DNA from: a bacterium
GTDB taxonomy: Bacteria; Armatimonadota; Fimbriimonadia; Fimbriimonadales; Fimbriimonadaceae
Length of the DNA: 64,000 nucleotides
Direction: 5' to 3'
Assembly (NCBI GenBank): GCA_027485645.1
Contig: JAIXQR010000003.1
Location: forward strand, 1 to 64,000
Shown here: piece by piece, positions 2,454 through 58,560 of the stretch
Position numbering within the stretch: position 1 is the first letter of the stretch
Layout of the letters: each line of letters opens with the position of its first letter
Notes under the pieces: model-generated
Database searches by the model: none
What the model saw: the letters and a program-made list of their open reading frames with translations, nothing else
Told to the model about the DNA's origin: nothing
Translations under genes and position numbers: made by a program

Positions 2454-3422
2454 TTAGTTGCCGCGTGGGGCTTGTCGTTCGAACTTGAACTCTTTGCCGA
2501 GCATCGAGGCCCACTTCTTCTTCTGGTTGCTGGAAAGGATGGCGAGCACTTTCGCGTCGACTTCCTTTCTCATTGCTTCCATCCGCTCTGGATCCATTCC
2601 GCCAGGTCCACCTTGCCCGCCGGGTCCACCAGGACCGCGCTGCCCGCCAGGACCGCCTTGGCCACCAGGACCTCCCGGTCCACCGAAGCCACCCTGGCCA
2701 CCAGGTCCACCCTGTGGAGGACCGCCGAAGCCGCCCTGTCCGCCAGGACCTCCAGGTCCGCCTTGGCCGCCGCGGCCACCCTGAGGTCGGGTGAGCTCAC
2801 GAATCTGCTCGCGCTGATCGTCGCTCAGGTCGAGCTTCTTCGCAATGTCGTCTCGGTTCATGGCGCGAGTGCCTTCCAACTGAAGGGCGAGTTCGCTGTA
2901 GCGGGAGTACTGCCGATCGTTCAGGATTTCCTTGACCTTGGCATCCTGCTGGGCTCGCATCTGCTCGTTCATGCCACCCGGTCCGCCAGGACCACGCTGG
3001 CCGCCAGGTCCGCCCTGGCCACCAGGGCCTCCAGGGCCGCCAGGGCCTCCAGGGCCACCGAAGCCGCCCTGTCCGCCGCCACCAGGTCCACCCTGTGGAG
3101 GACCGCCGGGGCCGCCCTGACCGCCGGGCCCACCAGGACCGCGACCGAAGGCCTCTCGAACCTGCTCGATCTGGGCCTCAGAGAGCTTGAGTTCCTTCTG
3201 CACATCACTGCGCATTAGAATGCCGGGGCCGCCCTGCATCATGCCGCCGCGCATTCCGGGGCCACCCTGGCCGCCAGGTCCGCCTTGGCCGAAGCCTCCG
3301 CGTCGCTGTCCGCCCTGTCCCTGTTGGGGTCCGCCGTCCGGGAACCCTTGTGCCATCGATGCCGCGCAAACGGCCATCAGCGCTGTAACGACGATCAGAT
3401 CTCGAAACTTGAAGTTTTTCAT
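2454..3422 (-). CDS. secreted Spy/CpxP-like protein with Gly-Pro-Gln-rich linkers
   Basis: A 322-residue protein with a signal peptide (MKNFKFRDLIVVTALMAVCA, cleavage near SMAQG). The start at 3422 is chosen over 3452 because it puts the signal peptide at the N-terminus. Two copies of one module are visible. Each has a Spy/CpxP-type helix (KLSEAQIEQVREAF; DLSDDQREQIREL), then a long Gly/Pro/Gln-rich tract, then a second helix (KVKEILNDRQYSRY; KVLAILSSNQKKKW). Spy and CpxP are periplasmic ATP-independent chaperones or stress regulators; that role here is inferred from the LTxxQ-like helices and from the operon. It lies just downstream of the regulator and kinase genes, as CpxP relates to CpxRA, and ends at the terminator at 2413-2442. 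The collagen-like GGPGGPGGQ tracts are unusual for the family. Confidence 0.75.
   Translation of the reverse strand: MKNFKFRDLIVVTALMAVCAASMAQGFPDGGPQQGQGGQRRGGFGQGGPGGQGGPGMRGGMMQGGPGILMRSDVQKELKLSEAQIEQVREAFGRGPGGPGGQGGPGGPPQGGPGGGGQGGFGGPGGPGGPGGPGGQGGPGGQRGPGGPGGMNEQMRAQQDAKVKEILNDRQYSRYSELALQLEGTRAMNRDDIAKKLDLSDDQREQIRELTRPQGGRGGQGGPGGPGGQGGFGGPPQGGPGGQGGFGGPGGPGGQGGPGGQRGPGGPGGQGGPGGMDPERMEAMRKEVDAKVLAILSSNQKKKWASMLGKEFKFERQAPRGN
2590..3330. repeat. low-complexity GGP/GGQ codon repeats
   Basis: Three blocks of imperfect 9-base units on the plus strand (such as CCACCAGGACCG and CCGCCAGGTCCG) at about 2600-2790, 2970-3150 and 3230-3330. They encode Gly-Gly-Pro and Gly-Gly-Gln runs in the minus-strand gene. 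All six frames stay open across much of the region because the repeat lacks stop codons, so the other ORFs here are artefacts. Confidence 0.8.
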
Positions 3423-3441
3423 GTGTCTCTCATGAATCAGT

Positions 3442-4941
3442 CTAGGGGCCACTTGTGAGGAATTTGTTTGCTTTGGGAAGCTTTAAAAGGAATCGCGATC
3501 CTTGGCCAAATTTGCTCTCGACCGACGCTGTTCCGCCATGAGCCGAAACGATGGTTTGCACAATCGACAAGCCCAATCCGGCGTTCGTTGAACCTGAACG
3601 CGCCTCATCCACCCGATAAAAGCGCTCAAAAAGATGCGGCAAGTCTTTCTCGGAAATTCCGGGACCAAGGTCCCGAACCGCAACCTCGACCTCCTCGCCA
3701 ACTTCACAAACCGCCAGTTCCACCCGCGCCGAATCGGGCGAGTACCGCAGCGCATTGTCCAAAAGGTTTGAAATCGCCCGCGCCACCGCATCGATGTCGC
3801 AATCCAAAGCAATCGCCTCCTCCGGCAAAACGCAGTCAATCCGGTCCGCACTCGCAATCGGCAGTCGCTCAAGGGCCCGAATCACCACCGTCGGCACGTC
3901 GGTTGGCACAATCTTCAGCCAACCCCGCCCCGAATCCGCCCGGCTGAGCACCAGCAACTGCTCCACCAGCCGCGTCATCGATTCCGCCGATTGCCCACAA
4001 ACCCGCAGGGCTTCCCGTAGCTGCTCCGGCTCCGATCCCGGCTCCGACGCCGCCAGCCGAATCCGCGTCAACGGCGTTCGCAACTCGTGCGAAGCATCGG
4101 CAGTGAACTGCCGCTGTCGATCAAACGCGTCCTCTAACCGGTCCAGCACCTCGTTAAACTTGCTCCCCAACCCGGCAAGCTCATCCTGCCCGCGAATCGG
4201 CAAACGCCCGCTCAGGTTCCGCCCGGAAATCTGCCCCGCCGCGTCCGCCATCTCCTGCACCGGCCGCAGCCCTCGCGTCGCCAACAGCCAAGCCCCAAGC
4301 CCGGCGACCAAGCAGGCAATGGGAACAAACAACGCCACCGTCGTCGCCTGCGATCGCTCCCAGAACTCAAAATCCCGCAGCCCCCGCGCTACCTGAATCG
4401 CCGCCGCCTGCCCTTCCTGGTCCTTAAAGGGGATCGACAGCACCCGCACCGACATGCCGTCAACCTGCACCACGCGAACATCCTCGCGCCCCGCGATCGC
4501 GACCTTGGCCCCCTCCGGCGAAATCGCCGCGACCTTTCCATCCGGAAACTCCGCGAACCCGTTTGCCTGTACGACCTGACCATCGCGATAAAACCGAATC
4601 GGATCGGCCGATAGCCGGGCCAAATTGCCTTGCCGCCCAATCGGACCTGGGCCACCAAAACCGCCCGGCCCATCTGGACCCGGACCTCGCCCCATCCCAA
4701 ACCCCGGCCCACCCGGACCTCCTGGCCCTTGCCCCGGACCTTGCCCCTGTCCTGGACCTTGCCCTTGTCGTCCGGGCGGACGCATAAAGCGGCCCACCAT
4801 GCCACGCATATCGCGGTCGATATCCCCCCGCAACCGCTCCCGCTGGGTGAAAAAGAGCGCCGATGTGAAGCCAATCAGGCTCACCCCCAAAATGCCGGCT
4901 GTCCACAGGGTCAGCCTCAGCCGAAACGAGCCCTGGATCAA
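3442..4941 (-). CDS. HAMP-domain sensor histidine kinase
   Basis: A 499-residue membrane kinase. TM1 lies at about residues 10-30. The extracytoplasmic region begins with a Gly-Pro-Gln tract (roughly 57-105, GQGPGQGQGPGQGPGG type). TM2 is near 198-222, followed by HAMP. The HisKA box DASHELRTPLTRIRLA places the phospho-acceptor His near residue 283. The ATPase domain has the N box (NLLDNALRYSP), DLGPGIS, and a G2 box (NAGLGLSIV). The start is TTG, inside a 4-base TTGA overlap with the regulator stop, so the two are translationally coupled. By family it autophosphorylates and passes phosphate to the adjacent OmpR-type regulator. The signal is unknown. The periplasmic low-complexity tract matches that of the secreted product of the next gene. 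Confidence 0.93.
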   Translation of the reverse strand: MIQGSFRLRLTLWTAGILGVSLIGFTSALFFTQRERLRGDIDRDMRGMVGRFMRPPGRQGQGPGQGQGPGQGPGGPGGPGFGMGRGPGPDGPGGFGGPGPIGRQGNLARLSADPIRFYRDGQVVQANGFAEFPDGKVAAISPEGAKVAIAGREDVRVVQVDGMSVRVLSIPFKDQEGQAAAIQVARGLRDFEFWERSQATTVALFVPIACLVAGLGAWLLATRGLRPVQEMADAAGQISGRNLSGRLPIRGQDELAGLGSKFNEVLDRLEDAFDRQRQFTADASHELRTPLTRIRLAASEPGSEPEQLREALRVCGQSAESMTRLVEQLLVLSRADSGRGWLKIVPTDVPTVVIRALERLPIASADRIDCVLPEEAIALDCDIDAVARAISNLLDNALRYSPDSARVELAVCEVGEEVEVAVRDLGPGISEKDLPHLFERFYRVDEARSGSTNAGLGLSIVQTIVSAHGGTASVESKFGQGSRFLLKLPKANKFLTSGP

Positions 4942-5618
4942 CCCGCTTCTCCGGTGCTGCGAAGCGAATAACCCAACCCGTGCATGGTGTGGATCAGCCT
5001 AGCCTGCTCGCCCGCATCCACCTTCTTCCGCAGCGAAGCGATGTGGAAGTTAATCGTGTTCTCGTTCCGATCTTCATCCTGCCAAAGCGCATCCATCAGC
5101 AACGCGCGAGTCACGATTCTCCCTTCGTTCTTTGCAAGAATTTCTAGCAGAACATATTCTTTTTTAGTCAGCTTCAGCTCTTGCCCAGCCCGCTTTGCCA
5201 CGTGGGCGTTCGTATCTAGCTCCAGATCTGCCACTCGCAAAATCCCTGTCCGCTGCACCCAGTCCCGCCGCACCAATGCCCGAACCCGAGCGGTCAGTTC
5301 TCGCACGTCAAACGGCTTCACCAGGTAGTCATCGGCCCCGGCATCTAGCCCCTGAACGCGCTCGTCGATGGTGTCCCTCGCGGTGAGCATCAGCACCGGC
5401 GTTCGGTCTCTTTTCGACCGTAGGTACTGGCAAAACTCTAGGCCGTTCATCTTCGGCATCATCACGTCCAAGACGACCAATCCGTAACTCGCTTGGGCGA
5501 CGAACGACTTTGCCTCTTCGCCGTTGTAAGCAATCTGCGTGGTGTAACCCTCGGTCTCCAGGGTGGCCGCGATTCTGCTCGCAATAATCGGATCATCTTC
5601 CACCACCAGAATTCGCAT
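4938..5618 (-). CDS. OmpR/PhoB-family response regulator
   Basis: A 226-residue protein starting MRILVVEDD. The longer ORF upstream is rejected because it would place 50 unrelated residues before the receiver domain. The receiver has the acidic pair (EDD), the phospho-acceptor Asp near residue 51 in VVLDVMMPKMNG, the Thr of MLTARD and the Lys of LVKPFD. The C-terminal winged-helix DNA-binding domain (LKLTKKEYVLLEILAKN, NTINFHIASLRKKV) is typical of OmpR regulators. It is first in the operon regulator-kinase-Spy-like. It lies divergent from tolC, so the 5619-5805 region probably carries its own target sites. Confidence 0.95.
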   Translation of the reverse strand: MRILVVEDDPIIASRIAATLETEGYTTQIAYNGEEAKSFVAQASYGLVVLDVMMPKMNGLEFCQYLRSKRDRTPVLMLTARDTIDERVQGLDAGADDYLVKPFDVRELTARVRALVRRDWVQRTGILRVADLELDTNAHVAKRAGQELKLTKKEYVLLEILAKNEGRIVTRALLMDALWQDEDRNENTINFHIASLRKKVDAGEQARLIHTMHGLGYSLRSTGEAG

Positions 5619-5627
5619 TGTTGTTAC

Positions 5628-5640
5628 GGTACCGACGAAT
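5628..5640 (+). promoter_or_regulatory. 13-bp element shared with the hlyD-macB junction
   Basis: GGTACCGACGAAT in the divergent regulator-tolC intergenic region. Its exact reverse complement occurs at 8859-8871 between hlyD and the permease gene. A second shared word, CACGGTAACG, occurs at 5785-5794 just before tolC and at 8849-8858. A regulator-binding site is one explanation; this is inference. Confidence 0.35.
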
Positions 5641-5805
5641 GATGAGAAATATGTGAGGAGTCTCACCGGAAATCCATCACGTGAACTCGCAATTTTACGT
5701 GTCCCGCGCAACTTTCCGGGTTCGCGATTGCGTAAGATGACCTTGGGGATGCGGGGGCACAAAGTCATATCGACACAAACAAATCACGGTAACGTGGTTC
5801 GCGCT

Positions 5806-7104
5806 ATGCGTTTGCCGCTCACGTTACTCCTGACCAGCCTTGCCGGAATGGCATTTTCCCAGGCTCAGGAAGCCAGTCCCCTGACCAAACTCACTTTGGA
5901 CGACGTCGTTCGGCTCACCAAAGAGAGAAACGGAACCATTCGAGCCGCCTTCGCTGACCTCGATGCCGCAAAGGCTCGCAGTCAAGCCTCTTACAGCGCG
6001 TTCTTCCCGACGGTTACGCCGGGTTTCCGCTATCAGTACCAGCGGCAGGAAACCGCCAGCGCGCAGTTTGGCAACCGAACCTTCGTTTTCGACCAGAAGC
6101 AGACCCAAATTGACGGCAACTGGACCTTCCTAGACTCTGGCCAGCGCGACGCCGCTTTCCGCCTCGCCAAGCGAAACGCCGATGCGACCCAGTTCACGCT
6201 TTCTCAGACGGTTCGGCAGACTCTGTTCAACGTTCAACAGCAGTATTACGAAACCCTGCGAGCCCAAGAGCTTCTCAAGGTGACCGATTCCCAGGTCGTC
6301 CGCGCAAATGCGATTTTGGAGCAGACCAAGAAGCGAGTTGAAGTTGGAGACGCCGCCCGAAAGGACATTCTGCAAGCCAGCGCCGATGCGCTCAACGCCC
6401 AGGTCAACACCATCGCCGCACGGAACCGCGTGGCCAACAACGGTGCGACGCTTAAGGCTTCGGTCGGAATTGACCAGTTTGAGCCCTTGCCAACGCTGGT
6501 GGCTGTCGACTCCGAGCCTCAGCTTGACAAGCCTTCTGACCTCGAGGGACTGTTCAAGTCCGCGCTCGAAGTTCGCCCAGACCTTAGAGCCCAGCGAAAG
6601 CGGCTAGAAGCCCAAAAGTTCGCCCTGAAGCAGTCGCTAATCAACGCTGGCGTTTCGTTCAACCTCGACGGCGGCTACACCTACCAGTTTTCCCCGAACC
6701 AAGGCGCTAACCAGTCGCTGAACCTGACCTTTAGCTATCCGCTCTTTGACGGCGGATTCCGACGTGCAAACGTCCGACAGGACCGGGCAACATTGGAGTC
6801 CAACGTTCAGACCCTGACCCAGGCAGAGCGAACCGCGAGGGCAGAAATTGAAAGCGCATACACGACGCTTGCGCAAAACGTCGACCGGCTCGCCGCCGCC
6901 AAGGCCGCCGTGGAAGCGGCCCGCGTGAACTACGCCGCCGCCCTGGGTGCCCAGCAGGCTGGAGCCAGCGACCTTATTGAAGTTTTGACCGCACAAGTTT
7001 CGTTGGTCACCGCAGAGAGCAACTACATCGAGGCAGTTTATGACTCTCTTATCAGCGACCTTCGGCTGAAACTTGTAACGGGCAAACCCCTTCCCGGCGA
7101 ATAG
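5806..7104 (+). CDS. TolC-family outer membrane efflux protein
   Basis: A 432-residue protein with a signal peptide (MRLPLTLLLTSLAGMAFSQA). The start at 5806 is chosen for this; the open frame back to 5563 runs into the regulator gene. It shows the TolC/OEP architecture of two related halves, each with long helices rich in Ala, Gln and Arg (ADLDAAKARSQASYSA; AAVEAARVNYAAALGAQQAG) and strand segments (TVTPGFRYQYQR; NLTFSYPLFDGG). TolC trimers form the outer-membrane channel of tripartite exporters. The adaptor gene follows 3 bases later and a MacB-like permease comes next. It therefore belongs to one tripartite system, probably controlled by the divergent two-component pair. Confidence 0.92.
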   Translation: MRLPLTLLLTSLAGMAFSQAQEASPLTKLTLDDVVRLTKERNGTIRAAFADLDAAKARSQASYSAFFPTVTPGFRYQYQRQETASAQFGNRTFVFDQKQTQIDGNWTFLDSGQRDAAFRLAKRNADATQFTLSQTVRQTLFNVQQQYYETLRAQELLKVTDSQVVRANAILEQTKKRVEVGDAARKDILQASADALNAQVNTIAARNRVANNGATLKASVGIDQFEPLPTLVAVDSEPQLDKPSDLEGLFKSALEVRPDLRAQRKRLEAQKFALKQSLINAGVSFNLDGGYTYQFSPNQGANQSLNLTFSYPLFDGGFRRANVRQDRATLESNVQTLTQAERTARAEIESAYTTLAQNVDRLAAAKAAVEAARVNYAAALGAQQAGASDLIEVLTAQVSLVTAESNYIEAVYDSLISDLRLKLVTGKPLPGE

Positions 7105-7107
7105 TCC

Positions 7108-8856
7108 ATGAAAAAGACGATCCTTATCATCGTAGGCATAGTCGCGCTCGGCGCTGGAGGTTGGTACTACACCACCCAAAACCAGACCCAAGTCGCAGAG
7201 GTTGAGTACCGCTATGCCGCAGTGGAAAAAGGATCCTTGCGCCGCTCCATCTCGGCAAGCGGACAAGTTGTCGCTCTCACTGCAGTTGACGTGAAGTCGA
7301 AGGCGGGCGGAAACGTGGTCAAGCTCGCCGTCGAAGAAGGTTCCGTCGTTAAGCAGGGCGATCTCATTGCGATTATCGATCCCGAGGACACGAAGGCGGT
7401 TTACGACCAAGCTAGCGCCGACCTCGAAAGCGCCAATGCTCGTGCTCGACAGGCCGAAATCAATCTGGACCTGCAAATCAAGCAGTCCGAAACGGCCGTT
7501 CAAGACGCTCGCAACTCGCTTGCCGCCGCAAAGACTCGGCTTGAGCGAGCCACGATCGAGGCATCGCGCCAGCCAGAACTTTCCTCGGCAGCCGTTCGAA
7601 CCGCACAGGCGAACCTTGAGGCCAGTCTCGCGGCGCTTGAGCGACTTCAGAAAGTCGACATTCCGCAGCAGCGCGCCGACGCTCAGAACGGAGTAACTGA
7701 CACCCAGACTTCAGTAAACACCGCAGAAGCCGAACTCACGCGCCAGCAGTCACTGCTCCAGCAGGGCTACGTGGCGGCATCGGCCGTTGATAACGCGCGA
7801 CGCACCTTGGCCACCGCAAAGTCGAACCTGGCATCGGCAACTCAGCGACTGAAGACAATTGACGATTCGGCTCGCATCCAGATCGCCTCGGCAAATGCTG
7901 AAATCGCACGAACCCGAGCGGCGCTCAGTCAAGCGAAGGCGAACTCGACTCAGGACGCCGTGCTGAAGACAAACTTGGCCGAGTCGAAGCAGGCCGTTCG
8001 GTCCGCGGAAATCGCCCTGCAAATCGCCCAGGACAACCGAGAGCAGGTTGAAATTCGACGCTCAGAGTTGATCGGCGCCCGAGCCAGTACCGTTCGAAGC
8101 CGCGTTTCGGAGCGAAACGCCAAGATCAACCTCGACAGCACAACTGTGGTTGCACCACGAGATGGTGTTGTGACGGTGAAGTACTTGGAAGAGGGCACGA
8201 TCATTCCGCCAGGAGCCAGCACCTTCGCTCAGGGAACCTCCTTGGTTCAGATTTCGGACGTCACCGAGTTGTACGTAGAGTGCGCGGTGGATGAAGCGGA
8301 CGTCGCCGCAGTAAAGGTCGGCCAGAAGGTCAGCGTCACCACCGAAGGATTTCCAAACCAGAAGCTCGAAGGCAAAGTCACGCGGGTCAACCCAGCGGCG
8401 ACGACGGTAAACAACATCACCGCCGTTAAGGTCCGAGTGAAGCTAAACGCCGACAACAAGGTGCCCGTGGTTCCAGGAATGAACGCGACCTGCGAATTCA
8501 TCACGATGGAACTCAACGATGTCATCGTCGCGCCATCGCAAGCGGTAACCGCCGGCGCAGACGGAAAGTCCACCGTCCGCGTCAAATCTTCCGATCCGAA
8601 GAAGCCAGAAGTCAGAACGGTTGAGATTGGCGAAGCCGGAAACGAAGGAATCGAGATCAAATCCGGCCTGAAGGTTGGCGAAGAAGTCGTTACGGCCGAG
8701 ATTGATGTTGCCGAACTTCGAGAGATTCAGCGAAAGATGAAGGAAGCCCAAGAAGGTGGCGGATTGGCAGGTGGCGGCGGACGTCCGAACCAGAACCGAC
8801 CTCGGGCCACGACCGGCGGTGGTGCTGGTGCAGGCGGCGGAGCACGACCACGGTAA
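7108..8856 (+). CDS. HlyD/MacA-family periplasmic adaptor
   Basis: A 582-residue membrane-fusion protein. One N-terminal anchor (MKKTILIIVGIVALGAGGW) precedes a first half-lipoyl segment (GQVVALTAVDVKSKAGGNVV, EEGSVVKQGDLIAIID). A very long coiled-coil hairpin (about residues 100-330) is followed by the second lipoyl half (VVAPRDGVVTVKYLEEGT), beta-barrel and membrane-proximal parts. The Gly/Arg-rich C-terminal tail (GGGGRPNQNRPRATTGGG) is unusual. The hairpin is longer than in E. coli MacA, which may suit a wide envelope. It is coupled to tolC by a 3-base gap and bridges the inner-membrane permease to TolC. Confidence 0.92.
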   Translation: MKKTILIIVGIVALGAGGWYYTTQNQTQVAEVEYRYAAVEKGSLRRSISASGQVVALTAVDVKSKAGGNVVKLAVEEGSVVKQGDLIAIIDPEDTKAVYDQASADLESANARARQAEINLDLQIKQSETAVQDARNSLAAAKTRLERATIEASRQPELSSAAVRTAQANLEASLAALERLQKVDIPQQRADAQNGVTDTQTSVNTAEAELTRQQSLLQQGYVAASAVDNARRTLATAKSNLASATQRLKTIDDSARIQIASANAEIARTRAALSQAKANSTQDAVLKTNLAESKQAVRSAEIALQIAQDNREQVEIRRSELIGARASTVRSRVSERNAKINLDSTTVVAPRDGVVTVKYLEEGTIIPPGASTFAQGTSLVQISDVTELYVECAVDEADVAAVKVGQKVSVTTEGFPNQKLEGKVTRVNPAATTVNNITAVKVRVKLNADNKVPVVPGMNATCEFITMELNDVIVAPSQAVTAGADGKSTVRVKSSDPKKPEVRTVEIGEAGNEGIEIKSGLKVGEEVVTAEIDVAELREIQRKMKEAQEGGGLAGGGGRPNQNRPRATTGGGAGAGGGARPR

Positions 8857-8871
8857 CGATTCGTCGGTACC
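8849..8871. promoter_or_regulatory. composite repeat of two elements from the tolC promoter region
   Basis: CACGGTAACG (8849-8858, overlapping the hlyD stop codon) directly abuts ATTCGTCGGTACC (8859-8871), the reverse complement of the 13-mer at 5628-5640. Both words therefore recur in the tolC upstream region. The element lies in the 46-base gap before the permease gene and could bind a regulator or mark an internal promoter. Confidence 0.35.
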
Positions 8872-8902
8872 AAGACGTACTTCAAAAAGTAACGGTTAGA
8901 TC

Positions 8903-10114
8903 ATGAATATTGCCGACGCGATTGGAACTGCCCTCCGGGCGATTGCCGCTAACAAGCTGCGATCTGCCCTCACCATGCTCGGCGTCGTCATCGGCGTTGG
9001 CTCGGTGATCGCGATGATCGGGATCGGCGAGGGCACCAAGAAAAAGTCCGTCGAGAATATTCAGGTCATGGGCACGAACATGCTCACGGTGATGCCCAAC
9101 TGGCGACGTGGCAACGTGGCCGGTGGCCCGAACGATATTCCGACTCTGAAGGACGAGGACGTTGGCGACTTGAAGCGTTCAGTTCCCCTCATCGAGCTCA
9201 TTACCGGATCGGTTGGGGCGCGAGCAAGCGTTAAGTTCAAGAACATCAACTACTCGACTCAGATCAGTGGCGCTCAGCCGCAGGTCGCCATCATTCGCAA
9301 CGCGACGAAGATGCACCAGGGCACTTGGTACACGATGGAAGACGAGGCCGAAGCCAACCGCAAAGCCGTTCTCGGCTTCTTGGCTTACCAAGAGTTGTTC
9401 GGCGACGACAACGCCATCGGCACCACGATCCGCATCAAGAATCAGACCTTCGAAGTGATCGGAGTGGTGGCCTATAAGGGCGGTTCCGGCATGTGGAACC
9501 CAGACGACCAGATTTACATTCCGCTTTCCACCGCCAAGACCCGCCTGCTCGGGCGAACCAATCTTGACAACATCGTGATCCAGGGTACGAGCGCTGAGCT
9601 GTTGCCAATCATGCAGCAACAGGTGGAAGAAACCTTGGGCAAGAAGCGAAAGAACGCCGGCGGCGAGCCGCTCTTCCGCGTCATCAACCAGGGCGAGTGG
9701 ATTGAGCAGATGGAGCAGCAAACGCGCCTGCTTTCGACTTTACTTGCGGGTATCGCATCGGTCTCCCTCCTCGTTGGCGGCATCGGAATCATGAACATCA
9801 TGCTCGTTTCGGTCACGGAGCGAACGCGAGAAATCGGACTGCGAAAGGCTATCGGCGCAAAGCGCGAAACCATCTTGGGCCAGTTCCTGCTTGAGAGCGT
9901 CGTGATGTGTACCGTTGGCGGCTCGTTCGGCATTCTCATGGGCCTGAGTAGCGTTGCGTTTGTGGCGCAAGCGCTCAAGGTTCCGCCTGTGATCAACAGC
10001 ACGGCCATCATCGTGGCGTTCGGATTCTCTGCTGCGGTCGGGCTCTTCTTCGGCCTGTATCCAGCGTTGAGAGCTTCTCGGCTCCAGCCCATCGAAGCGC
10101 TTCGTTACGAGTAA
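8903..10114 (+). CDS. MacB-like ABC transporter permease without an ATPase domain
   Basis: A 403-residue FtsX/MacB-type permease. TM1 (ALTMLGVVIGVGSVIAMIG) is followed by a ~220-residue extracytoplasmic MacB_PCD-like domain, then three C-terminal TM helices with the FtsX-family signature (TREIGLRKAIGAKRETILGQF; YPALRASRLQPIEALRYE). E. coli MacB fuses an N-terminal ATPase to this permease. Here the protein starts directly at the permease, and no nucleotide-binding gene lies in the operon. The partner ATPase must be encoded elsewhere, or the complex works without one. With TolC and HlyD it would form a mechanotransducing exporter of peptides, lipoproteins or drugs; the substrate is not predictable. 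Confidence 0.93.
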   Translation: MNIADAIGTALRAIAANKLRSALTMLGVVIGVGSVIAMIGIGEGTKKKSVENIQVMGTNMLTVMPNWRRGNVAGGPNDIPTLKDEDVGDLKRSVPLIELITGSVGARASVKFKNINYSTQISGAQPQVAIIRNATKMHQGTWYTMEDEAEANRKAVLGFLAYQELFGDDNAIGTTIRIKNQTFEVIGVVAYKGGSGMWNPDDQIYIPLSTAKTRLLGRTNLDNIVIQGTSAELLPIMQQQVEETLGKKRKNAGGEPLFRVINQGEWIEQMEQQTRLLSTLLAGIASVSLLVGGIGIMNIMLVSVTERTREIGLRKAIGAKRETILGQFLLESVVMCTVGGSFGILMGLSSVAFVAQALKVPPVINSTAIIVAFGFSAAVGLFFGLYPALRASRLQPIEALRYE

Positions 10115-57555: not shown

Positions 57556-58560
57556 TTAGCCGTTAATGATTCCCTTGATCGAAGTCTTGTACTTCGTTTT
57601 CAGGCCGAAGTAGTCGCTAACCGTGAGGGTGATCGTGTAAGAGCCAGCTTTTCGGAACTTGCGCTTGACGAACTGTCCTTCGGAGTCAACGTTCTCGTCC
57701 GAGCCATCGGTGTCGTCGAAGTCCCAGGTGTACTTCAGAATGCTGGAGCCGCCCTCGCCGCGAGCGCCAAAGATCATCTCCGCACCGAGTTCGCGGTTGA
57801 ACGACTTAGGCGAGATTTCCGCTCGGATCGGAGTGGAATCGCTTACAACCCGCATATCACCGACATAAAACGTCGTGGTCGTATCGGCAGAAAGGCCGAT
57901 CTGGTTGATGACCTTGTTCGTTCGATCGAATCCAGAAATGGCCTGAAGCGGAACCGAAACCGTTCGCCAGCCGCGCTCGCCCGCCGAAGAAGAAGTGTTG
58001 GTTGGCATATACGCTTCCGACTTCTTGCCATCGGTTGTGGTGATGATCACGCGGATCATCTTGAAGCTAGGTGGTGCGCTTGCCGCTGCGCCGCCGAAAC
58101 CACCCGGTGCACCACCGCCGAACTGACCGCCACCAGGCAGGCCGCCGCCAGGCAGGCCGCCGCCAGGCAGGCCGCCGCCAGGAAGGCCACCACCAGGTCG
58201 ACTTCCGCCGGTACCAGACCCAGGGCGATTCGCGCCGCCGGCGCCCGTTCCCATAGCTCCAGAATCAACCGGGCGATAGATCAAGCGGAACAGATTGCTC
58301 TTGTTCGTCTGAGCCTTCGCGAGATCAACCGGGGTACCGAAATTGATTTGTCCGCCTTGGAAGAAGTTTCGGGTGGAGATTCGAATGGATCGAGTTCCCT
58401 CGTAAGCCACTTCGTCGGTTTCGGAAATGACGCCGCTGCCCCAGCCTTTGACCGAGATGTTCTGGTCCTTAATTTCCCGAACCGGCGTGTAAAGCACTTC
58501 GCTGCCTTGCGTACCCATCGAGGTGAGTGCGATTACTGAAATTACGATTCCAAGTCCCAT
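57556..58560 (-). CDS. secreted protein with Gly-Pro linker and PKD-like domain
   Basis: A 334-residue protein with an N-terminal signal segment (GLGIVISVIALTSMGTQ). The first domain (~30-110) may be a carbohydrate-binding-like beta sandwich (VAYEGTRSIRISTRNF). A low-complexity linker follows (PGGGLPGGGLPGGGLPGGGL). The second domain (~180-250) is beta-rich. The C-terminal domain (~255-334) has the PKD pattern (YTWDFDDTDG, KFRKAGSYTITLTVSDYFG). A binding or surface function is inferred. It follows ymdB after 3 bases, so it may be the last gene of the recA-rny transcript region. Confidence 0.78.
   Translation of the reverse strand: MGLGIVISVIALTSMGTQGSEVLYTPVREIKDQNISVKGWGSGVISETDEVAYEGTRSIRISTRNFFQGGQINFGTPVDLAKAQTNKSNLFRLIYRPVDSGAMGTGAGGANRPGSGTGGSRPGGGLPGGGLPGGGLPGGGLPGGGQFGGGAPGGFGGAAASAPPSFKMIRVIITTTDGKKSEAYMPTNTSSSAGERGWRTVSVPLQAISGFDRTNKVINQIGLSADTTTTFYVGDMRVVSDSTPIRAEISPKSFNRELGAEMIFGARGEGGSSILKYTWDFDDTDGSDENVDSEGQFVKRKFRKAGSYTITLTVSDYFGLKTKYKTSIKGIING
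58134..58193. repeat. 15-bp tandem repeat encoding GGGLP
   Basis: Three exact copies of CAGGCAGGCCGCCGC (58134-58178) plus a diverged fourth (58179-58193). They encode the (GGGLP)n linker of the PKD protein on the minus strand. Such exact repeats are prone to copy-number change. Confidence 0.85.

Follow-up and report, generated by a model that had tools for sequence, protein, structure and literature searches.

The window analysed here, a stretch of 64,000 nucleotides from a 3.19-Mb draft genome, carries on its minus strand (positions 2454-5618) an operon encoding an OmpR-type response regulator, a membrane sensor histidine kinase, and a secreted tandem Spy-type protein, of which the latter two bear Gly-Pro tracts that are predicted to be disordered and that covary in length among relatives. 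Judged from sequence, this covariation suggests that the kinase and chaperone tracts work together in sensing. We read the system as a three-gene envelope-stress circuit in which the tandem Spy chaperone would gate its cognate kinase and the tracts would join the same coupling step, a reading to which we assign a probability of about one half. The system is a variant of a known accessory-chaperone-kinase logic, and the observation generalizes beyond the window.

In the order of the open reading frames, the regulator (4938-5618, 226 aa) is followed by the kinase (3442-4941, 499 aa) and the secreted protein (2454-3422, 322 aa), all on the minus strand. The TTG start codon of the kinase overlaps the TGA stop codon of the regulator, and 19 bp separate the kinase stop from the gene of the secreted protein; the operon of the preliminary description is thus borne out, and it recurs across the order. 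With a regulator that matches Response_reg (E 7.9e-33) and Trans_reg_C (winged helix, E 1.3e-22) beside a kinase that matches HAMP, HisKA, and HATPase_c above cut-off, the pair belongs to the two-component systems of the OmpR/PhoB class. For the secreted protein, the ATG at 3422 is a likelier start than the GTG at 3452 given in the ORF list, since the signal-peptide-like N terminus begins there. A GC-rich hairpin at 2442-2413 (minus strand; 13-bp stem with 10 GC pairs, T-rich tail CTTTTGTGTC) is a probable intrinsic terminator of the operon; its stem is by far the longest among the terminator-like sites scanned, of which 5 were observed against 3.8 expected from shuffling. No description of such an operon type was found in the literature searched, coverage of which was partial.

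The assignment of the secreted protein was made at the level of its family. Taken alone, it matched LTXXQ weakly (E 0.31) and the Spy model below cut-off (E 4e-4); among 83 aligned family members, 67 matched LTXXQ, and the family profile reached the Escherichia coli Spy structures at E ~1e-8. These motifs and the profile match, in a secreted helical protein, place the family in the Spy/LTXXQ superfamily, while CpxP chains were reached only at E 0.13-0.14, so that CpxP-family identity was rejected. The profile of the central core also matched these proteins in their N- and C-terminal segments; the proteins are thus internally duplicated, and their two halves together hold four LxxxQ motifs. The conserved helical core (residues ~149-211, 2790-2978, minus strand) was defined by alignment and is confidently predicted, with a pLDDT mostly above 90; a Foldseek search with the model returned no chain. 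Three tracts with a pLDDT below 50 occupy residues of about 25-61, 97-146, and 220-271, the second and third of which (2985-3134 and 2610-2765, minus strand) stand at the places taken by the first and second hairpin tips in helical tract-free paralogues.

Members of this tandem-Spy family occur in 108 of 113 genomes of the order, with several copies per genome, and in 57 of 151 genomes sampled from the phylum. Many paralogues carry no tract and are helical from end to end (e.g. L156, L122, and L133); in the operon form, Gly-Pro tracts replace the segments between motifs 1 and 2 and between motifs 3 and 4, and in three apparent intermediates (L066, L077, and L080) the first half is helical while the second bears a tract. 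Elsewhere in the phylum (20 loci), the helical tips are kept, with at most Gly-Pro tails, and no such kinase adjoins.

The AlphaFold2 model of the kinase (mean pLDDT 81.8), together with the domain matches, indicated a long helix that runs through TM1 into the periplasm, a disordered tract, a mixed helix/strand domain resembling extracytoplasmic PAS domains, TM2, HAMP, and the HisKA and HATPase_c kinase core. The tract follows the TM1 helix and precedes the PAS-like domain (residues ~54-104, 4630-4782, minus strand), in agreement with the preliminary placement at about residues 57-105, and residues 64-68 and 72-104 have a pLDDT below 50. In a structure search, the kinase core matched WalK, HprS, CusS, and CpxA, the listed matches all being filled by the kinase domain, and the sensor region found no match in sequence or Pfam searches. 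The score against the NCBIfam CpxA model was 127.6 bits, below the cut-off of 486. The sensor of CpxA is likewise PAS-like (PMC11078701).

As for composition, the tracts had been described as Gly-Pro-Gln; their Gly-Pro character holds, while Gln is a minor component (about 8% of kinase tracts and 11% of Spy tracts). Kinase tracts are enriched in P, N, D, and R, and Spy tracts in G. Collagen-like or polyglycine-II repeats of period 3 were considered and found unsupported in the kinase tract, the best Gly occupancy being 0.39 for the kinase and 0.51 for Spy tracts. The pairing of tracts exceeds chance, since at least 25 tract residues were found in just 3.0% of 1052 other genes of the sampled loci and in 1 of 50 in the window. 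That single gene of the window encodes a PKD-domain protein with repeated LPGGG (57556-58560).

The presence of tracts in both partners is not limited to one genome. Kinase loci were gathered from relatives, tandem-Spy loci were gathered independently with a core alignment that excluded the tracts, and the neighbourhoods were then examined, with start codons set mechanically; a kinase was called linked when a tandem-Spy gene lay no more than 2 kb away, and one with at least 20 tract residues was called tract-positive. Before any restriction by kinase family, the median number of tract residues is 45 in linked kinases and 0 in the others (p 1e-9). Within the same kinase family among relatives in the order, 37 of 39 linked kinases carry a tract vs 7 of 19 unlinked ones (Fisher p 4e-6). 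The sampling was not random, since loci were found through similarity to the window proteins; of the 12 linked kinases that were reached only via the Spy search, in genomes outside the kinase search, 11 carry the tract, a finding that speaks against its enrichment through the kinase query.

Several of the tract-bearing unlinked kinases have a tract-bearing protein of another kind or at another place. One (L049) has, to either side, a single-module LTXXQ gene that bears Gly-Pro tracts, two (L053 and L056) belong to genomes that hold a tract-bearing tandem-Spy gene elsewhere, one (L076) lies 4.2 kb from such a gene, and one (L078) adjoins an unrelated helical protein bearing a Gly-Pro tract; in L060 and L075, the kinase tract is present and a Spy-like neighbour is absent. 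Conversely, in genus g47, long Spy tracts adjoin tract-free soluble GAF kinases (L093, L097, L099, L100, and L102), an arrangement in which the secreted protein serves another circuit. Together, these loci indicate that a Spy tract can occur where the kinase has none, and that a kinase tract is rarely found where a Spy-like protein is lacking.

Some of these loci deserve mention in their own right. L049 (6460-9751) appears to be an independent pairing of a tract-bearing kinase with a different Spy architecture. The neighbour in L078 (7678-8556) has two helical segments that resemble each other, with a Gly-Pro linker between them, and shows no clear LTXXQ match and a weak NPA match. The g47 loci, which include L103, where no kinase was seen, are tract-rich in their tandem-Spy genes, of which some loci hold two. 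The window's own genome contains a second regulator-kinase pair (L069, 5373-8172), with a tract-free kinase and a divergent gene for a 176-aa Spy-like protein that ends in Met/Gly/Pro repeats.

Among the linked pairs, the tract lengths of kinase and Spy protein are correlated (rho 0.54; 0.43-0.69 over definitions), also when GC is partialled out (0.55) and after removal of near-duplicate loci (rho 0.64, n=32). Independent contrasts on the kinase tree, which was a single FastTree run, gave r 0.55 (p 0.0005), and the covariation held over 20 tract definitions (contrast r 0.32-0.68). The contrasts revealed no positive correlation between the non-tract length of the Spy protein and the kinase tract length. 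Composition also covaries between cognate partners in P (contrast r 0.76), R, G, and N, and the Q fraction showed no covariation in the contrasts. The tracts therefore do not vary independently, as the notion of matched partners had demanded, with exceptions in both directions.

A genome-wide taste for Gly-Pro tracts was rejected as the sole cause. Sixteen genomes hold linked as well as unlinked Spy proteins; in these, kinase tract length correlates with that of the linked proteins (rho 0.72) and not with that of the unlinked paralogues (rho -0.10), linked Spy tracts exceed the mean of the unlinked ones in all 16 (Wilcoxon p 3e-5), and the other kinases of the same genomes are mostly without tracts. 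Covariation of this kind supports coevolution of the tracts and does not by itself establish contact between them.

A less likely alternative is that the tracts are separate flexible spacers without contact, namely a longer helix-PAS loop in the kinase and a hairpin-tip replacement that serves the Spy protein's own chaperone work, with the match arising from a common compartment and from selection for solubility and disorder. The modelled disorder of both tracts would suit such spacers, as would the Gly-Pro tails of tandem-Spy proteins without such a kinase elsewhere in the phylum and the long-tract g47 proteins beside soluble kinases. Separate spacers, however, leave unexplained why length and composition covary between cognate partners specifically and not with unlinked paralogues of the same genome.

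It is unlikely that the operon is a heavy-metal system. In such a system, the closest subfamilies would be CzcS/CopS for the kinase and CopR for the regulator, and the secreted protein would bind metal like ZraP. The best NCBIfam models are indeed cztS_silS_copS and cztR_silR_copR, the N terminus of the secreted protein is Met-rich, and efflux genes adjoin; however, both models score below cut-off (TIGR01386, CzcS/SilS/CopS: 231.2 bits for the kinase, cut-off 292.55), and His and Cys are almost absent from the kinase loop and the Spy-like protein. ZraS-ZraP likewise pairs a kinase with an accessory protein of the Spy/CpxP superfamily, and ZraP binds metal, but it differs from the window system in regulator class, metal ligands, and architecture. 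The efflux genes themselves, the divergent TolC-like, HlyD-like, and MacB-like permease ORFs (5806-10114, plus strand), form a possible regulon that the preliminary description had named as the obvious target. They are not a conserved neighbour, as just 3 of the 40 linked operons have them in the fetched flanks of mostly 3-8 kb (adjacency is kept in the close relative G014, TolC/HlyD also in G069, and none was seen at the other linked operons); a conserved target is thus unsupported, and regulation of the efflux operon is a weak guess. A search of the intergenic region 5619-5805 for regulator-binding repeats yielded one 8-mer pair only and no promoter-like match. The HlyD-like adaptor ends in a low-complexity tail rich in Gly, Arg, Pro, and Asn (8750-8856).

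A genomic or mutational artefact, by slippage of GC-rich repeats or gene conversion inside the operon, is very improbable and largely refuted: insertion and deletion do drive tract evolution (G000 vs G014) and some imperfect tandem repeats occur (69-85% matches), but tract length is uncorrelated with locus GC (rho 0.03 and -0.12), which rules out GC-driven repeats, 11-mers common to both tracts are rare across pairs (1.0% real vs 0.6% swapped), tracts are mostly absent from other kinases of the same genomes, and the window tracts have no common 10-mer and differ in codon choice, so that copying of DNA between them was discarded and the match lies at the protein level.

The circuit in which an accessory chaperone gates its kinase is the most economical reading in light of the precedents of CpxP-CpxA, Spy, and EnvZ-MzrA. 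The secreted tandem Spy-type protein would serve as a periplasmic chaperone and as the accessory protein of the neighbouring kinase. When free, it would act on the extracytoplasmic domain of the kinase, probably as an inhibitor; when filled with misfolded or disordered client, the presumed signal, it would release the kinase, as CpxP does with CpxA. On this reading, disordered Gly-Pro tracts have taken the place of the hairpin tips of an ancestral helical protein. The cognate kinase has a tract of similar composition before its PAS-like domain, and both tracts would participate in one coupling step through weak multivalent contact or a common binding target.

The Cpx-like label given earlier holds for this logic and not for CpxP identity. 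As in E. coli CpxA-CpxR-CpxP, an OmpR-type regulator accompanies a HAMP/HisKA kinase, whose extracytoplasmic domain is PAS-like, and a gene for a secreted Spy-superfamily protein adjoins them; unlike there, the accessory protein is of tandem Spy type and its gene is usually co-directional in the operon, and disordered Gly-Pro tracts are found in both partners. Charge complementarity has been proposed for CpxP-CpxA. Here, both partners carry a mildly positive net charge (medians +2 and +5), which at this level argues against a positive accessory surface facing a negative sensor; contact, if any, is therefore probably not of the polar kind proposed for CpxP-CpxA. CpxP interacts directly with CpxA and thereby inhibits it, and misfolded pilus subunits such as PapE displace CpxP (PMC4160245).

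E. coli Spy, a periplasmic chaperone with the same LTXXQ motifs, binds its clients on a concave surface, with flexibility being important (PMC3910116); it differs from the protein described here, which has two Spy-like halves per chain, Gly-Pro tracts in place of hairpin tips, and a linkage to a kinase. In EnvZ, a periplasmic polyproline motif co-occurs with the modulator MzrA and is needed for its binding (PMC6023141), a parallel to the kinase tract, although the motif is short and confined to EnvZ, MzrA has no matching tract, and the modulator is unrelated. Sensing through disorder itself is a possible, still doubtful form of the coupling, in which the kinase and chaperone tracts would bind each other in a homotypic, multivalent, and length-tuned manner, perhaps condensate-like, so that the chaperone tract would report client load or envelope state directly to the kinase tract.

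Beyond a handful of systems, it is poorly understood how accessory chaperones signal to sensor kinases. The family described here provides about 40 natural variants of a single kinase-chaperone pair, in which the tracts vary together in length and composition, with examples of separation and of near-loss among them. What disordered extracytoplasmic segments contribute to the control of kinases is thereby directly testable, and the pair would also be a further clear case of low-complexity sequences that coevolve.
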